Origin: Ditylenchus dipsaci
Lineage: Eukaryota; Nematoda; Chromadorea; Rhabditida; Anguinidae
Assembly (NCBI GenBank): GCA_004194705.1
Contig: SADC01000918.1
Location: 1-64,000, forward strand
Direction of reading: 5' to 3'
Length of the DNA: 64,000 nucleotides
The position numbers were made by a program, and so were the translations under genes. Below are positions 34,495 to 61,994 of this stretch, piece after piece; positions within the stretch are counted from its first letter, which is position 1; each line of letters starts with the position of its first letter. Below the pieces are notes generated by a model. That model did not search any database, had not been told where the DNA came from, and saw only the letters and a program-made list of their open reading frames with translations.

Positions 34495-36126
34495 GTTCTA
34501 TTGACAACCCTAACAGATATATTCGAACTCTACAATCACGGATCGTATGCAAAGTTCGGACGCTTTACTTTTTTCCTCATTTTTGTTTAAAAATACCTAG
34601 TCTTTTTTTAAAAATCCAAAGTTTCGAATCTTGAAAAATCAAAAGACCATCGACGTTGATGAAAATGGCAATTTCGAGTTTTTGAATTCCCGAAGGGGGG
34701 CAGGGCAGCTGAAGACGCGGAAATGTTTTTTGAATTATTTTTTCTTTTGCATCAAATTTTTTTATTTTTTTTATTAGGCGAGGCGAATCAACTGTTAACA
34801 ATTGTATGTTATAGCTCAGTGAAAGTCGGCTAACTATAACTCGTTCGATCTGGCACTGTAAGCAACGTTGGGCTCGACTAGTGTATGGTTCTTGATTTTT
34901 AACTCGCAAAAAAGAAGTTCGAAAAACATTTTCGAAATAAGAGAGCTGTCTTCCGCAAATTCAAAAACTCGAAATTGCCATTGTCATCAAGGGGCTCAAA
35001 TGGTTCTTTAAAAATTTGGCGCTACTGTAATATAACCTCCCCCAATAATTTTAAGGCTTAGGAATTAGGCTTAGCTCTTAGGCTTAGGGCGTTACGCATT
35101 AGGCTCAGAGACAGCAAGTAATAATTTCACCACTTTTCAAAAAAAGTATGGTTTTTGGGGTACCTGAAAAATTATTGGGGGGGGGGAGTTTATATTACAG
35201 TAGCTTTTTAGGAGGAGGGGGGTATATGACAGTAGCGTCAAAAATTCTATCCTAATTTTCAAAAAGCTCCAAGCTTTGCATATGAGCTCAGCATGCTCAT
35301 AATCTTTGCAACTGAGCTATGTCACTTATACAGTCATTAAAATTTTTTTTTGAAAAAAACATGAAAAGCCAAGCGCTTGCTAAATAAAAAACACCCTTTA
35401 ATGGTAAACACAAGAAATTATTCGCTTTTTTATTTATTATATAGAAAGTATTAATTTGGAGGCGACAGTCATACAAAATGCATTTCGCATATTTTATCAT
35501 TTTTTATTTCAAAACAGAGCAAGAGGAAAATAGGAAAGGACGACCACGACGATCCTTTGTGGGTGGGGGGTGAAAAAGAGGTGCAAATGCTTTCTTCCTT
35601 TGCTATACTTTTGATTCCATCAACAAATTTTTTTGTTGCTTGTGTGCAATGATTTTTTATATATGGTTACAATAAATTCTAGAAAAAGGTAGGATAGAAT
35701 GCGAAAAGTTTAATCCCAGCTTTACCCACCTTTTCCCTTTTTATATACTTTCCACACCTAGGAATGAATACAGGAGTTGGTACTAAATTTTAGTACACAA
35801 ACATATATTTGGAGTATAAGTTTGGGCAACAATTTTTTCCGGCTAAAACACTCTTATTCCAGCTAAATTTATATTTTTATTTTTCTTTAATAAAGGGGGG
35901 GGGGCTTCTACAGCTACTTTTGACATCGACTACGATTTCACTTCACATACACTTTTTTACATATTTTGTTTTCTTATCTCAGATCTTTTTACACCGTTTT
36001 GTAGCTTAGACTTTTCTCTATCAATATAGTATTCAAAACCCGTGATTAATCAAATTTCGAGAAAATCACACCAAATATGAGGTGAAACTCCATTTAAAAC
36101 ACCTGGGTTAAAAACCACGGTTTTTA
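34495..36126. other. Repeat-rich non-coding stretch
   Basis: Contains a poly(C)/poly(G) element at 35018-35240 (GGCGCTACTGTAATATA ... G run ... TATATGACAGTAGCGTC) and the left arm of a larger inverted repeat from about 35895 (TACAGCTACTTTTGACATCG), whose partner ends near 37655. No exon recognised. Confidence 0.45.
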
Positions 36127-52806: not shown

Positions 52807-53127
52807 ACCCCCTCAACAATGTCTCTAGTGTGGGATCGACGTCTACATATTTTACTTATGTCATTTTTGTAGCTAAGGAAATATATTTAAAGTATATTTT
52901 ATCACGATATTGACTTCAAAAATTAGTACGGGACGACTTTAGACAAAAATACTGGAAGCTGAAACAGCTTCTTTTGCTTAGAATGCTCATAATTCTGAAA
53001 AAATAAACCCCGCAACTCTTGATATACCACTAGAAGCTTACTTCCTTGGCTATCTAATGGTATATGATGAGTTAGGATGTGACTAGAATTAAGCCCCCTG
53101 CGTGGAAAAATATGCTAGACATCCATC
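52807..53127. other. Non-coding
   Basis: Spacer between the two genes; nothing recognised. Confidence 0.3.
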
Positions 53128-53664
53128 GATTTAGCACCTGCTCGAGTACTCAAACTTCCGAGGTCGATATCTCGAAATGGACTATGAACGTCAAAATCTG
53201 ATGGCGCTATCGTATTCAGCGTATCATAAATAGGGTATCCAGTTGTAAAACAATCAATGCCCAAATTTCGACTTTCCGACCCAAGTCCAGTCTCTCAAAA
53301 TGTGACTCTTTATCTATATTAATAACTATTTCAATATCTTTTGCTTTGATATGAGTAGAATGTAAAAAGCTTTTTATAATTTAAAAATGGATATAAAATT
53401 TATTTGCTGACTAAAAAACACTTTTAAAAACAAGAAGATGCAAAAAAATTAAAGAAAAAAGTCAACCACGCGGAGTGAAACTCGGTAGCCTCGACCACCA
53501 AAGTCTAACCCAATACACTACCGAAGCTATGACACTGTTAGCTAGCTATACATAGTTCAAAATCAAGTTTCAATTTAAAAAATGTAAAAAAATAGCATTG
53601 AAACATTATCATCACATTAAAAAGCAAAATCATACGTAAGAAAATAAATTGACACAAAAACAAA

Positions 53665-53745
53665 AGACACCAGGTGGATTCGAACTCGAGCGATTCTAAC
53701 ATTTGACCACCGCACTGCAATCCACTAGGCCACTCACGCACGCCG
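53665..53745 (-). repeat. tRNA-like sequence in the duplicated arm
   Basis: The minus strand reads GTGCGTGAGTGGCCTAGTGG (A-box like) and, about 40 bp on, CGAGTTCGAATCCACC (good B-box). The T-stem does not pair, so it is a tRNA-derived remnant. A second, weaker one lies at about 53455-53540. Both are copied at 59570-59640 and 59760-59840. Confidence 0.5.
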
Positions 53746-53995
53746 CTCAATCATTAATGATCGCCATATATTAATAAAGTCAATTTCCAACCGCAACTTT
53801 TTCGCACCAAAATGACTTTTCCGCAAAAAAGGATATTTATGTCAAAAAGCGTTTTCGACGCTGTATCCAAGAGTTTGTAAGATTTTCAATATCGCTCGGT
53901 ATGTTCCCTTCTTAAGAACCTTTGATTACTGTACTGTTTTCATTCTCTGCTTATTTCATTTTTTTCGAACGCTCTCAAATCTAGAAGCAAGCACA

Positions 53996-54821
53996 ATGGT
54001 CGAAACTCAAGGTTGGTAGGCTCAGGTGATGACCGGCCTCGTGAATGAGCAATTGATGAGAAAAAGCAGAAGAAGCCCTTCTACAAGAGTACGCTGTTCA
54101 TCGTGATCGCCGCTATCATTCTTCTCGCTCTTGTTCTAGGCGGTGTTGTGACTGTGTATCACTTCACAGTCAGTATGTTATTTTTTGAGTTCACTTTCTG
54201 TGGCAACTTAAGACTTCTTTACTTTAGTCAAAGAAAGAAGACTTCGAAAAGGCTACTACAACTACTGGCCTCCTGGTTGCTGCTGTAGTAGTAGTTCTGC
54301 TGCTTCTGAAGCTCCTTCCACCTCTGCTCCAGATGTTCTCACGACCGATAGATCCCCTTCCGCTAGGTGTGAGAATGAAGTGAATTTCTTCGGGAAATGA
54401 TCAAAGAGAAAGAAAAATGATAAGTAAGCTGATGTCCCTTCTTCAGCAAGAAAGTCTTGAAGCCAGAGCACTCAGAATTGGCTGGACTCTGCCGGTGTGG
54501 TGTTCAAAGCTTTGTACAAGTTTTCAACTTGTCTGCTGTATCTTTTTCTTAGTTTACTTTTTTAAAACGAAACTTCATGCATGCACATTCTAGCGTTCCG
54601 CTTGTCATTTACGCGATCAAGCTGCTGTTGGAAACCCTTAAGACTGCGAAAAAGGCTGAAGAAAAGCGACGCCGAGCGAGAAGATCGTCGATTTTGCATT
54701 GAAGACACTTGGTAGCATAACCAAGGGGCTGAAGAAGAAAAGAGCGTCATCTTGGCTCATCATCCGCCGAAAAAGCAGGAACCAGCCTTAATCTCATTTC
54801 ACAATCAGAACAGACTGAAAT
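53996..54821 (+). CDS. Membrane/coiled-coil protein, donor copy
   Basis: Exons 53996-54172, 54228-54519 and 54594-54821. Compared with the second copy, the product has a short polar N-terminus, a membrane span (LFIVIAAIILLALVLGGVV), a Thr/Ser/Cys-rich linker (CCCSSSSSAASEAPSTS), a coiled-coil segment (FLREMIKEKEKMISKLM) and a Lys-rich C-terminal helix region (VPLVIYAIKLLLETLKTAKK). This copy has single-base losses in A or G runs (for example at about 54384, 54461, 54666) that break the frame where the other copy is intact. An early in-frame stop after the ATG exists in both copies, so the true start is unsure. No known family recognised; domain order suggests a membrane-anchored scaffold or secretory-pathway protein. 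Confidence 0.6.
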
Positions 54822-54884
54822 GTAAGATAAATTGCTTCGTTAATTCTCGGATTTTTATTCTCACCTCAGGAATTTTAAATTTTC

Positions 54885-55722
54885 AGGATATCAAAAAAAT
54901 TTTACAAAGCATACAGAAAGTCTCATCTTTGGTAACTAATATCCTTTTTTCTCGTTGGTAGCCTTATGGGAAAGAAACTTTTCCTGTCAGTTTATAACTT
55001 TTTCGTCGCCGAAAAAACATTGGTTGCATGTAATTTACCTTTTTTACCCGTAATTTTTTAACAAGGTCATCAAGAATAGATTAAAAACAACAAAACGACT
55101 ACTGAGAAACAAGTCTAAATGTCGATATTGTGTAGAGAGTTCAGCCAATATCTTCGCCAAAGGTAAGAATCATTGTAAGGAAATCATCTCGTCTTTGTTC
55201 TGTGCGGGCTCGTGCATACTCCACTTTTTACTGCATATCTAAAAAAATTTCATTCGTATCACTGTCTATAGCAAATTCAAAAATTGTCAGCCTTTTGGCA
55301 CTCAGTTCTTTGTTCGATACGAGCAATGTGAACATCTTTAAAGTAATCTAGACAAGACCGAGCTACTCTGCTACTCTACATACTCTATCTGATTAAATAT
55401 GCAATAGTACATTAAAGATTGTAAAAATAGCCTATACAACGAAACGAATCACGAGCAACTACAAAAATGAGGTACGAGTAGGAGAACGAATCAGTATTCA
55501 GTAACTTCTATTTATGATTCAAGTTCGCTGATCGATATATTACAGGGTTTTTTTCACAATTTTCAATGCGACTGCATACAACCGTACAAAGTCGTAAACG
55601 CTGTAGCGTCGATTCAGAACTTTTTTCGTTTATTTGATAACTGTCGAATTTGTCAGGCTGTATTTTGTCAAAGTGAATTGTCACTCTTTATGTGCCTTCG
55701 TGCTCTAGATATAAAAAGTATA
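54885..55722. other. Downstream of donor gene
   Basis: An acceptor TTTTCAG at about 54886-54892 follows the arm border, so the donor gene has a last exon here that the captured copy lacks. Beyond about 54960 nothing is recognised. Confidence 0.4.
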
Positions 55723-57006
55723 CCGTATTTCCTCTAATTAACGCCCCGGGGCGTTTTTTTTTTGGATGCCAAAATCGGAAAATTTGGAATTCGATCTCGA
55801 GATTTTTGGTGCTCAACCATGATCTAAAAAGTGGAGTCGGTAGAGCTCGTGGCAGTTAAGAAAACGTATCAAACAGCTTTGCAAAATTTGCTTCTACCCT
55901 GAGATCCAGACTCTCAAAGTGGAGTACCGTAAAAACGCCTACGCAAAAACGCTACAGTAAAAGGCCTACAGCAAAAAGGCCTACGCAAAAACGCCTACGC
56001 AAAAAGGCCTACGCTAAAAGGCCTATAGTAAAAAGGCCTACAACTGTTTCTAAACTTAATTGATCTACAAATGCCCTGAAACGCATTAAAATTGGATGTC
56101 TGTGTGACAAAAAGGCCTGAAAAGGCCTTAGCCATGTTTCGATTTTAAAAAATTATAACCTTCTGTATATATTCTATTTAAGTTCACGCTTCTATTGAAT
56201 TTCCATATTCTTTTCAGCGTTGGCATTCATTTGGGCAAACTCATTTGGCACCTCATTTGGGCGCCAATTTCAAAATGTCTAATTTTCCTAACTCGAAACT
56301 GCGGTTTTTCCGATTTTATTAGTGTATTCGTCCCGGACACGTCACTCGGGCGCGGTCAGTTGTCCTCCTCAAATTGACCCTCGGTCAATCGCTCCTGTGG
56401 TAAATCAGAGGATTTTTTTTCATTCAAAAGAAATTTTATTCCGATTTGGTTGGAACGTCACAGTGTTTCAATGGAGGTGGTAAATTCCTCGCGGTGAATT
56501 CACGTCAGTAATTTCCCTGTGGTAAATTAGCCTTTCAAAAATTGTGAGGTTACATGTTTCAATCCAAGTGACAGCAGACATTATTTTTTCTCAAATAAAG
56601 TAATACATTAGTATTAAAAACTATGTTCGACGTGCTGTAACATGGCTGGGAATCGAACCGCGACCAGCTTTCACCGATTTCTGCTACTCGGGCAGTGGTC
56701 AGTTAAATCCGCGGCTAATTAGCTCCGTATTTTTTAAATCAATAATATTGCTATATTTTTGTCTAACTATCCTTGTTTTTTAAATGATTTTCTATGAACC
56801 AACCTCAGAAAATTGGAATTCTATTTGTTTCAGGACTGAAAAAATGTGGATAATTTTATAGGCGTTTTTTACTGTAGGCCTTTTTGCGTAGACCTTTTTG
56901 CGTAGGCCTTTTTACTGTAGGCCTTTTTGCGTAGGCGTTTTTACTGGACCCCTCAAAGTCTAGGGGGAGTTAATTAGAGGGGGAGCGTTAATTAGAGGAA
57001 ATACGG
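55723..57006. mobile_element. CCGTATTTCCTCTAAT element, copy 3, with nested insertion
   Basis: TA-flanked, ends CCGTATTTCCTCTAATTAACG and CGTTAATTAGAGGAAATACGG. A second element (about 55927-56947; CCGTAAAAACGCC / GGCGTTTTTACTGG) with subterminal AAAAAGGCCTACG arrays sits inside. It holds a tRNA B-box-like GGTTCGATTCC (minus strand, about 56650). Confidence 0.75.
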
Positions 57007-58185
57007 TAACTAGGCCTTCGTAACATAACTGTCGGAGCACGTTAACTTCAAGAGGCTGCCTGGCGAGAGTTAACTGATGTAGGATTTACATCACTCATTT
57101 TCAGGTCTTTACTCAAACCACTGGTAGAAAATGCAAATTAGTGCAAAACATGCTCGCTACTGTTAGGTGGCTCAACCCATAGAAAAATCGGATCAGGTAC
57201 ATCAGTTTAGACTTAAACGTCTACTAAAAGCGTCTCCTTGACTTTTCTAGCAGGTGAAGAATATCTGAAATCTTTCAGTCAGCAGAGAAAAGAAAATGCT
57301 TCTTTGCTGTCGACCTTCTTGTTGGAGTTGAGCGCGACTCAACTTCAAGTCCAGAACTTAAGACTAGAGTGGCGCCACCAACTCCATTTAAAAAGTTAAT
57401 CAGAGCAAGCTGCGTACGATACACACATCAATTAATGGTTGTTTTTTAAATAAGGCAGCCATGTGATCTGGTGATAGAGAATCCAATTTATGGCCTTTTT
57501 GTGAACATTTTGGTTGGAAAATATTTTTTCAAAAAGTGTCGTTCCGTGTCTAAAAACACGTTTCTATCGTTTTTAGGGCTAATGATAATATTGGCACAGA
57601 AATGATTTGAAAACGGGGGAGTGGGGATGAGTTATTAAAAAAAGGTGAGTTACTTTTCGGTTATCGCTTAGGGGGGTTAGTTATTAAAAAGGGCTGAGCT
57701 ATTGAAAAAAATACGGCAGTTCTAATCAGGGAATAATTCTAAATTTGCCACCACGCGCCATCGTTTGATTGGGAGTCAAAAGCGAATAATAAGTAAAAAT
57801 ACTAATACATGGACAAGCAGAGATAACACCAAGAAAAAAGAAGGCTGGCAAACCCAGTGCACACTAGAACAAAAAATAACCAAAAAGAGGTGTAAAGTTT
57901 TTTAGGATTATGGAAGATGGTTGGACCATTTTTGAGCTGAATCAAGACCATTTAGAGTGGATCTGGACCATAAAAGAAGCATCTGGACCATTAACACGAG
58001 AAAGGCGGACTGTAACTTTTGACCACCTGGGAGTTTTCAGACCTGATGAGCACGATGATCGCGAAATCAAACCCATATCATAGTAGCGTCAAATATTCTT
58101 TTACCTTTTTCGGTACAGCCGAGGTGACAGCTGGCCAAGTTTTTTTTGACTAAACATAGTTTTGGGACAAATCCGATATTGTTAA
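57007..58185. other. Non-coding
   Basis: Nothing recognised except short AGTTATTAAAAA-type repeats near 57630-57720. Confidence 0.3.
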
Positions 58186-58194
58186 TTTGTTTTC

Positions 58195-60256
58195 GGACAA
58201 TACTTTTTTTGGCGCAAAAACACTTTTTGGCGCAAATTTTCGTTTTGCGTAATTAGATTGAAATTTTCAACTTTTTCAAAAAGTTTTAACATCACCGTGT
58301 AGCCCTGCTCTTCTAGTTTCAGATGAGGTTTCATTTATTGCATCATCTTTGAAAAATGTGATACAAAAAAATGAAAGTATGAACCAAATCAGAGCAACAA
58401 TTTAAAATGAAATTTAAAATTCCTGAGGTGAGAATAAAAATCGAGAATTAACGAAGCAATTTATCTTACATTTCAGGTCTGTTTCTGATTGTGAAATGAG
58501 ATTAAGGCTGGTTCCTGCTTTTTCGGCGGATGATGAGCCAAGATGAGCTCTTTTCTTCTTCAGCCCTTTGGTTATGCTACCAAGTGTCTTCAATGCAAAA
58601 TCGACGATCTTCTCGCTCGGCGTCGCTTTTTCTTCAGCCTTTTTCGCAGTCTTAAGGGTTTCCAACAGCAGCTTGATCGCGTAAATGACAAGCGGAACGC
58701 TAGAATGTGCATGCATGAAGTTTCGTTTTAAAAAGTAAACTAAGAAAGATACAGCAGACAAGTTGAAAACTTGTACAAAGCTTTGAACACCACACCGGCA
58801 GAGTCCAGCCAATTCTGAGTGCTCTGGCCTTCAAGACTTTCTTGCTGAAGAAGGGACATCAGCTTACTTATCATTTTCTCTTTCTCTTTGATCATTTCCC
58901 GAAGAAATTTCACTTCATTCTCACACCTAGCGGAAGGGGATCTATCGGTCGTGAGAACATCTGGAGCAGAGGTGGAAGGAGCTTCAGAAGCAGCAGAACT
59001 ACTACTACAGCAGCAACCAGGAGGGCCAGTAGTTGTAGTAGCCTTTTCGAAGTCCTTCTTTTCTTTGACTAAAGTAAAGAAGTCTTAAGTTGCCACAGAA
59101 AGTGAACTCAAAAAATAACATACTGACTGTGAAGTGATACACAGTCACAACACCGCCTAGAACAAGAGCGAGAAGAATGATAGCGGCGATCACGATGAAC
59201 AGCGTACTCTTGTAGAAGGGCTTCTTCTGCTTTTTCTCATCAATTGCTCATTCACGAGGCCGGTCATCACCTGAGCCTACAACCCTTGAGTTTCGACCAT
59301 TGTGCTTGCTTCTAGATTTGAGAGCGTTCGGAAAAAAATGAAATAAGCAGAGAATGAAAAACAGTTACAGTAATCAAAGGTTCTTAAGAAGGGAACATAC
59401 CGAGCGATATTGAAAATCTTACAAACTCTTGGATACAGCGTCGAAAACGCTTTTTTGACATAAATATCCTTTTTTGCGGAAAAGTCAATTTTGGTGCGAA
59501 AAGTTGCGGTTGGAAATTGACTTTATATAATATATGGCCGATCATTAATGATTGAGCGGCGTGCGTGAGTGGCCTAGTGGATTGCAGTGCGGTGGTCAAA
59601 TGTTAGAATCGCTCGAGTTCGAATCCACCTGGTGTCTTTTTGTTTTTGTGTCAATTTATTTTCTTACGTATGATTTTGCTTTTTAATGTGATGATAATGT
59701 TTCAATGCTATTTTTTTACATTTTTTAAATTGAAACTTGATTTTGAACTATGTATAGCTAGCTAACAGTGTCATAGCTTCGGTAGTGTATTGGGTTAGAC
59801 TTTGGTGGTCGAGGCTACCGAGTTTCACTCCGCGTGGTTGACTTTTTTCTTTAATTTTTTTGCATCTTCTTGTTTTTAAAAGTGTTTTTAGTCAGCAAAT
59901 AAATTTTATATCCATTTTTAAATTATAAAAAGCTTTTTACATTCTACTCATATCAAAGCAAAAGATATTGAAATAGTTATTAATATAGATATTAAGAGTC
60001 ACATTTTGAGAGACTGGACCTTGGGTCGGAAGTCGAAAATTTGGGCATTGATGTTTTACACTGGATACCCTATTTATGATACGCTGAATACGATAGCGCC
60101 ATCAGATTTTGTACGTTCATAGTCCATTTTCGAGATATCGACCTCGGAAGTTGAGTACTCGAGCAGGTGCTAAATCTAGAAAATTTTCAATCTAATTACA
60201 CAAACAGAAATTTGCGCCAAAAAAAAGTGGATTTGCGCCAAAAAAAAGTATTGTCC
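58195..60256 (-). mobile_element. Mutator-like element carrying a captured gene (Pack-MULE type)
   Basis: Ends GGACAATACTTTTTTTGGCG and CGCCAAAAAAAAGTATTGTCC; the TIR similarity runs about 75 bp, to TAATTAGATTGAAAATTTTC. It is flanked by a perfect 9-bp duplication TTTGTTTTC (58186-58194 and 60257-60265). The termini match those of the SWIM-bearing element at 30388-31616. Between the TIRs lie about 140 bp of repeat sequence with a TAGCCCTG word (58271-58408) and then the inverted copy of the donor arm (58409-60176). The cargo keeps introns, so it was copied at DNA level. Confidence 0.85.
58414..59300 (-). CDS. Membrane/coiled-coil protein, captured copy
   Basis: This is the minus-strand copy of the gene at 53996-54821, with the same three exons and both introns. 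Its second and third exons are open throughout: linker, coiled coil (CENEVKFLREMIKEKEKM), and the C-terminal part ending in ...SQSETDLK. It stops inside the third intron, so the last donor exon is missing; translation would run into intron sequence and end at 58414. About 870 bp of upstream DNA came along, so it may be expressed. The ATG region carries the same early stop as the donor. Whether it makes protein is unknown. Confidence 0.6.
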
Positions 60257-60265
60257 TTTGTTTTC

Positions 60266-60654
60266 AGAGACATTTTTGGCGTAATGCCAAGAAGTTTCCG
60301 AGCTTGATTTCCAAAAACACTACTATCATAAGGAATACAGTAAACGCTGGTTGTATCGACGCTCTATATGAGGTTATATAGAGCGTCGAGGACACACTCT
60401 ATAAAACTACAACAAAATGCCATTTGCACTACCGCACCCTAGGCTACTCCCTAGGTGTGGCAATTTATCGGGGGGCTGATTGTTCTAGAAAAATGGAATT
60501 TGACTCTTTAAAATGTTATGTTAGAGAAGCTTTTTGCCGTACTTTTACTGTCCTTACAATGTACCCTCTGTATTCATGGGGACACTTATAGCAAAGGTTT
60601 TTACGTTTCAGTAGTTTAGTGGAATCGCATTGGTATTTCAAGTTAAAGGGCATG
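60266..60654. other. Non-coding
   Basis: A short hairpin CTCTATATGAGGTTATATAGAG at about 60361-60382; otherwise nothing recognised. Confidence 0.35.
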
Positions 60655-60855
60655 CTCACGCTTTAAAATTGGTCCCGCCAATTCAAAAAAATTCCCAGTC
60701 ATTGGATTTTTGTACGGATTTTTCAACTTGGTTTCTAACAAACAAGGTCTAGAATTTAATTTCAGGTATAGTTGTGTTAGAAACCAAGTTAAAAAATCCG
60801 TACAAAAGTTCAATGATCAGGAAAAAAAACTGAATTGGCGCGGGACCATTGATCA
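60655..60855. repeat. Hairpin MITE, second copy
   Basis: Arms GGATTTTTCAACTTGGTTTC and GAAACCAAGTTAAAAAATCC; same family as 25500-25700. Confidence 0.65.
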
Positions 60856-61509: not shown

Positions 61510-61994
61510 CAGGGCTGCATCGGATATCCGATATCCGACATCCGATATCCGATATCCGGCACTTTTTGACATCCGATATCCGGTATCCGATATCCGAAAA
61601 AATGACCGATTTTCGGATAAAATCGGATAAAGAGAGGCTATTTTGAAAAAAAACTTTTGAATTATTTTTTGAATTTATTTTAAAAAATAGGTGAAAACGA
61701 ACTCTTTTGCGGTCATTTTTACACGATTTTCTCCTGCATTTTATTTGTCTTGTTCTTCCAAGCTTAAATTTATGGCTTTCAGATGCTTAACGAACAAAAA
61801 TGGGATGCATTTTTTGAAAGGAACCATAGCGAAGTGCAAATAAAGTGTTTTACGAGAAAATTTTGAAAATATCCGAAATCCGATATCCGATAACCGATAT
61901 CCGGCACTTTTGATATCCGATATCCGATATCCGATCCGATATTTTTGAATATCCGATATCCGATCCGGTATTTTTTCGTATCGATGCAGCCCTG
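61510..61994. mobile_element. hAT-type MITE with GATATCCG arrays
   Basis: 485 bp, ends CAGGGCTGCATCG and CGATGCAGCCCTG, perfect 8-bp duplication GTACACAG (61502-61509 and 61995-62002). Both ends carry dense runs of the word CGGATATC/GATATCCG (61519-61615 and 61867-61975). Confidence 0.9.

Follow-up and report, generated by a model that had tools for sequence, protein, structure and literature searches.

The stretch of DNA analysed here, referred to as the window, comprises 64,000 nucleotides of the nematode Ditylenchus dipsaci (assembly GCA_004194705.1, contig SADC01000918.1, positions 1 to 64,000 of the forward strand). It contains a composite DNA transposon of 2,062 bp at 58195–60256, within which lies part of a predicted gene, copied in inverted orientation from 53128–54882, 3.5 kb away. 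Read directly from the window sequence, the element starts with GGACAATAC and ends with GTATTGTCC, and TTTGTTTTC stands on either side of it (58186–58194 and 60257–60265), which constitutes a perfect 9-bp target site duplication (TSD) with all nine positions identical. An alignment of the two terminal inverted repeats (TIRs) spans 74 bases of one and 78 of the other and contains 5 mismatches and 6 gap letters. Both ends of a single TIR element thus enclose the captured DNA, and the target site is duplicated around the whole composite.

The outer parts of the element derive from a palindromic miniature inverted-repeat transposable element (MITE), whose relatives we found throughout the genome. 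On the forward strand, the left TSD copy is followed by the left TIR (GGACAATAC..., 58195–58280, placed by TIR alignment and motif search), which opens a palindromic MITE left arm at 58195–58403. According to sibling comparison and the predicted fold of the sibling L004, this arm is complete to 4 nt past the position of the L004 hairpin loop. Alignments place 4–6 filler bases at the left junction between the MITE hinge and the captured DNA (58404–58409), and the inverted copy then occupies 58410–60176 on the minus strand. Alignment to siblings defines a right junction of up to 2 filler bases (60177–60178) and a 78-bp remnant of the MITE right arm, which corresponds to the right TIR (60179–60256) and lacks about 110–140 bp compared with L004 and L050. 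The coordinates, ends, and TSD of the element had been given in the same way in an earlier interpretation made from the letters alone (the sequence-only reading). Its estimate of about 75 bp for the TIRs is accurate for the window, but the arms of the family are longer, with 209 bp of the left arm shared with siblings.

The captured copy (60176–58410) is collinear throughout with the donor (53128–54882) over 1.77 kb, so that the donor end given in the sequence-only reading (54884) moves by two bases while the inverted copy itself is confirmed. The donor segment, characterized by genome search, alignment, and UniRef comparison, lies on the plus strand and comprises a repeat tail, upstream DNA, and exons with their introns from a predicted gene, which has a single hydrophobic segment (membrane-type, by eye). 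We searched the 227-Mb assembly (1359 contigs) with this segment and scored the best 40 of 77 candidates, which returned 42 matches. Among these, only the donor and the captured copy cover the full segment. The other 40 consist of 37 matches to a dispersed repeat within 53100–53313 and three paralogous copies of one exon. Judged against the range used for parental copies (a non-transposon interior of 100–5000 bp, a unique parent, and at least 90% identity), the cargo has a length of 1.77 kb and a single parental locus. The dispersed repeat, delimited at 53107–53310 by 37 partial matches to query positions 1–214, extends across the 5′ boundary of the donor, and about 180 bp at the 5′ end of the captured copy are repeat sequence. 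The proposed capture of about 870 bp of upstream DNA therefore needs qualification: upstream DNA is present in the copy, but it is partly repetitive and its donor edge lies inside a dispersed repeat. Copies of this repeat also occur as facing inverted pairs on six other contigs, and it may represent the end of a MITE family of its own.

The captured part includes the upstream region of the gene and three exons, and the introns are kept, as they would not be in a retrocopy. The hydrophobic exon and its following intron (54058–54235, plus strand) have paralogs on contigs C324, C1040, and C1346 with 77–80% DNA identity; with the C324 paralog, amino acid identity is 71.7% over 46 residues, and the intron position after the hydrophobic exon is also shared with a paralog. 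The protein database search was limited to candidates of 0.55–1.75 times the query length and returned one protein, A0A915E4H3 from Ditylenchus dipsaci, which matches the donor frames 54221–54364 and 54436–54549, breaks included, and represents the donor as modelled in this assembly. Two open reading frames on the minus strand of the copy, of 114 codons (58743–59084) and 138 codons (58414–58830), gave nothing above cut-off in a Pfam search. As assembled, the exon frame has no stops in the copy and three in the donor; read in the frame of the C324 paralog, both have an in-frame stop before the hydrophobic segment. The frames thus speak neither for nor against production of a protein from the copy, whose expression the sequence-only reading had considered possible. 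The copy ends near the 3′ end of an intron, and the donor gene appears to continue past 54882 to a next predicted exon (splice sites by eye). Because the next predicted exon is outside the copy, a transcript that extends through the whole copy would run on into the MITE.

Donor and copy are nearly identical in their aligned bases. We counted 1742 identical positions and one substitution in 1743 aligned bases, along with 34 indel events, of which 29 are changes in homopolymer length (44% would be expected for random single-base insertions); a different gap scoring gave 1741 identical positions, 3 mismatches, and 32 indel events. A near-identical control pair on contig C866 (L050/L052) has the same character: 2503 positions are identical, none is substituted, and 21 of the 22 indel events fall in homopolymers. 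Because the differences are dominated by indels, as they are in this control pair, the departure from full identity (98% overall) is mostly attributable to sequencing noise. The assembly was built from PacBio RSII reads with CANU and totals 227.2 Mb in 1,394 scaffolds; its description mentions no polishing (PMC6929663). Its source material was heterozygous, and flow cytometry gave a genome size of 160–170 Mb (PMC6929663), compared with which the 227-Mb assembly is inflated. Judging by the substitutions, the captured copy is very recent, or the pair has been homogenized by gene conversion.

A related stretch on contig C1295 aligns across the insertion point (58121–58194 joined to 60266 onward) and contains neither MITE nor cargo. 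It has one target copy, TTTGTTTTT, which matches TTTGTTTTC at eight of nine positions. The left flank aligns over 74 bp (58121–58194), and the right flank over 60266–60840 with an interruption: extra bases begin about 100 bp from the junction, and the match resumes at 60434–60840 with 91% identity. This is a paralogous site and not an allele. The sequence-only reading had named an empty-site allele lacking a single target copy as a refuting observation; an empty site with one target copy exists, but at a paralogous position.

In the carrier family, DNA beside the left TIR (58281–58403) is common to MITE siblings across the genome, and an internal query of 129 bp returned 76 matches among the best 40 of 810 candidates, many of them arranged as back-to-back inverted pairs. 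The 14 siblings measured are 383–449 bp in size. Their arms of about 200 bp, like the 74–78 bp of the window TIRs, are within what is meant by long TIRs in Mutator-like elements (MULEs). The sibling L004 is predicted to fold as a single DNA hairpin of 424 nt with a 10-nt loop at −172.5 kcal/mol, compared with −45.8 ± 4.4 kcal/mol for 100 shuffled sequences (z = −28.8). Target duplications were assessed at ten loci with both outer ends located, of which L050 and L052 share flanks, after three loci with an internal right end had been dropped. Three loci have 9/9 matching positions, four have 8/9, and three have only 7- or 8-bp matches; none of four additional pairs reaches 8/9, and the TSDs of L102 and L069 read 9/9 by eye. 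On this basis, 9-bp target duplications were counted as a property of the family.

The 346 sites of a 24-mer from the TIR overstate the copy number of the family and were rejected as a measure of it. Among 20 lone forward sites that were fetched, six are MITEs and 14 belong to another repeat; in these 14 (L083, L086–L089, L091–L093, L095–L100), a solo MITE end is embedded in the other repeat, and the upstream flank is shared as well. Among the terminal sites entered from the motif searches, of which that for the 24-mer listed 100 of the 346, the window element is the only facing pair of exact TIR matches more than 2 kb apart, within a 6-kb limit; this comparison used exact-match sites, left out those with one mismatch, and is not a census.

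The carrier probably belongs to the Mutator superfamily, to judge from its 9-bp TSD, its long TIRs, and its foldback form, together with the presence of MULE domains in the genome. The genome contains at least 115 MULE-domain matches among the best 150 of 504 candidates. The four terminal motifs of the carrier are absent from the ten MULE-domain loci inspected with 1.5 kb on either side (L039–L048). For the Mutator-type assignment made previously, the 9-bp TSD and long TIRs hold, but no transposase with matching TIRs is present among these ten loci. The 2,062-bp element is an animal Pack-TIR, and the earlier proposal that an animal TIR element with a 9-bp TSD captured a segment of a neighbouring host gene is supported. 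Several copies with different TSDs, as left by mobilization after capture in a Pack-MULE, were not seen, with one gene-carrying copy among the 40 candidates scored; although the single-copy state is not strictly defining, most published rice cases being single-copy too, we classify the locus as a Pack-TIR only. A published filter admits parents with no transposable element within 100 bp, and here the dispersed repeat spans the donor 5′ boundary. This filter is a guard against segmental duplication and not a definition of Pack-TIRs, and the worry that it addresses is answered by the junctions, the TSD, and the empty site. The gene-carrying element is a new, unusually cleanly preserved case of an event type already published in animals. 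In the open-licence literature, as far as its incomplete listings extend, we saw no account of a Ditylenchus gene captured by an element of this kind.

We consider it somewhat probable, at about 0.58, that a non-autonomous foldback MITE with a 9-bp TSD had its middle replaced by a DNA copy of the neighbouring gene segment, filled in place. The palindrome would extrude or stall replication, a break would occur at the tip of the MITE hairpin, and one arm would lose 110–140 bp. Repair would then fill the break where it lay, with the donor at a distance of 3.5 kb as the nearest accessible template, and would close with a few filler bases. Three observations favour in-place gap filling: the breakpoint falls at the hairpin tip, the donor is 3.5 kb distant, and there is a single copy. 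In a survey of 100 animal genomes, 160 of 281 unique Pack-TIRs (56.9%) lie less than 15 kb from their parent, most of those less than 5 kb, and single-copy animal Pack-TIRs are attributed to transposition-independent gap filling (PMC8277862). Several points weigh against such in-place filling. Timing fails to separate it from prior capture, as the MITE itself is possibly no older than its cargo; the junctions show no clear microhomology (by eye); and the coincidence with the hinge is one event judged after the fact, for which a breakpoint within 4 nt of the 10-nt loop has a chance of about 4% (hand estimate, assuming even breaks over 430 bp). Furthermore, the near-identity of inverted copies 3.5 kb apart could reflect gene conversion, no orthologous cargo-free MITE was at hand for comparison, and the donor edge lies in a repeat, so that the published screen would have filtered such a parent (PMC8277862). 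Dating by private substitutions, tried as a means to show that the MITE is older than its cargo, failed for lack of a useful difference: the element arms have one private substitution in 287 bases compared with 28 and 26 sibling arms, and siblings have 0–9 per 418. Raw divergence of the left arm from siblings (8–23 substitutions) was rejected as support for age, the variation being shared.

The alternative that carries most weight is capture before insertion, followed by a local hop of the gene-carrying element, which we regard as a possible but less favoured course. It would account directly for the perfect 9-bp TSD around the whole composite and for MITE arms that look no older than the cargo, and it is the published explanation of a Drosophila foldback case (PMC8277862). 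However, a single gene-carrying copy was found among the candidates scored, 3.5 kb from its donor, whereas the transposed cases in the published survey are distant and multicopy (PMC8277862); a local hop is possible but requires a coincidence. The sequence-only reading had taken this course, with capture followed by insertion 3.5 kb away; that order is not demonstrated, as the local position and the single copy suit in-place filling no less well. A different order of events, in which the cargo was the source and 53128–54882 the copy, or in which MITE arms were placed later on an inverted segmental duplication, is suggested by the open exon frame of the copy and the interrupted one of the donor. 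These frame differences, however, are indels of the kind also found in the control pair, and the duplicated sequence stops at the MITE arms. The captured copy also stops at 53128, inside the dispersed repeat, whereas 26 of the 37 matches to this repeat already begin left of 53128, no later than query position 18. Because the repeat is unbroken through the donor boundary and cut off in the element, the element is the recipient, and the alignments indicate copying from donor to element, which makes the reverse order extremely improbable. The direction proposed originally is supported by this cut and by a donor gene that appears to run past 54882. Finally, the inverted copy might be an assembly artefact, produced by duplication or folding of the contig or by a PacBio chimera with a missed adapter, given the heterozygous source, the inflated assembly (227 vs 160–170 Mb), and the lack of a described polishing step (PMC6929663), along with two copies that are identical except for indel noise. 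Yet both ends of the copy join MITE arms at base level, a perfect TSD bounds the composite, the empty site on C1295 carries a single target, and some 3.5 kb of other DNA lies between the two copies. Fold-back read chimeras are not expected to form base-level junctions with MITE arms, and an artefact is accordingly very unlikely.

A search for other cargo had been suggested alongside the original interpretation; among the other long arrangements of this family that were read, one is a candidate and four were rejected. The candidate, on contig C1309 (L002 1501–2536, contig positions 34633–35668), consists of a MITE followed by about 550 bp of filler that runs up to a second right TIR. Filler bases 30–565 match contig C5 (L103, C5:260117–260664) at 94%, which is the sole near-full-length match, with 14 substitutions and 18 gap letters in 560 aligned bases; the search also returned 38 further partial matches, and the middle of the filler (about 215–438) is itself repetitive. 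The similarity to C5 stops at the inner boundary of the right TIR, with positions 2465–2491 of L002 ambiguous, and none of the four terminal motifs occurs in the 951 bp fetched from C5. The outer end has an 8/9 TSD in low-complexity DNA. On its sequence, this locus is a candidate second capture by the same MITE family.

The rejected members have other explanations. The C1256 element (1,964 bp, 9/9 TSD) is a MITE that harbours a nested transposon with an 8-bp duplication (by eye), and those on C446 and C882 are nested palindromes within MITEs (by eye). The filler on C1250 is mostly dispersed repeat. This locus (L101, 132654–134463) has an odd duplicated-end structure, in which a full MITE, 17 bp of flank, and 1.2 kb of mostly dispersed repeat are followed by a second right arm, which is partial and has an almost identical 17-bp flank.

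Two further loci have a MITE at the centre of a larger palindrome. On contig C150 (L071/L075/L076; 199432–199890 and 200316–200770), the surrounding inverted duplication aligns over 464 bp at 95.9%, with 5 mismatches and 14 gap letters, and has no direct TSD (by eye). On contig C900 (L070/L073; 688632–689475), the palindrome reaches about 200 bp into both flanks, likewise with no direct TSD; an extra right TIR end lies about 250 bp downstream. Both arrangements fit palindrome-driven repair, though they are no proof of it. More generally, and tentatively, the palindromic MITEs of this genome may be recurrent breakage-and-copy sites, in which tip breaks would be repaired from nearby DNA, a MITE would become a gene-carrying element without a transposase, and a later transposase could move the product. 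The window element would be the cleanest example, and the structures on C150, C900, and C1309 would be scars resembling such repair.

Published systems share several of these features. Animal single-copy Pack-TIRs are similar in that two TIR ends surround host DNA within one TSD, near the parent and young (PMC8277862). Most animal Pack-TIRs, however, belong to hAT and Tc/mariner, whereas the carrier here is a palindromic MITE with a 9-bp TSD in a nematode (PMC8277862). The survey lists 370 reference-genome Pack-TIRs, among them 208 hAT and 115 Tc/mariner elements, and no Pack-MULE was identified in that set (PMC8277862, Tan et al. 2021). Ssk-FB4 of Drosophila melanogaster, a Mutator-like case, likewise has a foldback form, a 9–10-bp TSD, and a captured gene with its upstream region (PMC8277862). 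In contrast to the window element, which is single-copy, 3.5 kb from its donor, and derived from a MITE family of 383–449 bp, Ssk-FB4 is present at three loci with differing TSDs, far from the parent and polymorphic, has TIRs of about 700 bp, and is argued to have transposed after capture (PMC8277862).

Among nematode elements, the Tm1 Mutator/foldback family of Meloidogyne also has foldback TIRs, 9-bp TSDs, and MITE-like members, and some members carry host-like sequence (Cg-1, histone hairpin) (PMC3169594). It differs in having one member with a MULE-type transposase and composite TIR motifs, and no donor copy of the cargo is described in the excerpted account (PMC3169594); the likeness is one of description. 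Turmoil-1 of Caenorhabditis elegans is a nematode DNA transposon that contains rsp-2 exons with an intron and a cpg-3 fragment, but it is assigned to the Harbinger superfamily, for which the usual TSD is 3 bp, and the capture lies within its 760-bp inverted terminal repeats (PMC2572040). Plant Pack-MULEs are similarly non-autonomous TIR elements with host gene fragments. Their donors are often on other chromosomes, whereas the window element has one copy, one local donor, and a hairpin MITE as its carrier. In rice, 36% of Pack-MULEs are cited as multicopy (481 of 1337), with most single-copy.

How DNA transposons acquire genes is still argued, with gap filling in place set against template switching and transposition (PMC8277862). 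The interest of the present locus is the test of mechanism that it allows: donor and filled element lie within about 8 kb, intact sibling MITEs and a related empty site exist elsewhere in the genome, and there are almost no mutations. If the carrier is a Mutator element, it represents a class that the 100-genome animal survey did not find in reference genomes (PMC8277862). If palindromic MITEs generally break at the hinge, gene capture would be predictable from hairpin structure.

Other features of the window and genome were recorded in passing. A search of the window for tRNA genes found none. The nematode spliced leader SL1 has 218 sites in the genome at no more than one mismatch and none for a reversed control, and its motifs form regular arrays on contigs C409, C351, C422, and C1 with a spacing of about 1.1–1.35 kb. 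Between donor and copy, another transposon-like unit at 55722–57008 has a motif of the 'ACCGTATTTCCTCTAATTA' type in inverted form at its two ends (by eye) and contains inverted arrays of a 14–15-bp 'CCTACGCAAAAAGG' unit. At 186–2535, open reading frames, one of them with a CCHC-like knuckle, look like the gag/protease part of a retrotransposon (by eye). Downstream of the element, 61524–61977 is densely filled with irregular ATATCCG repeats.

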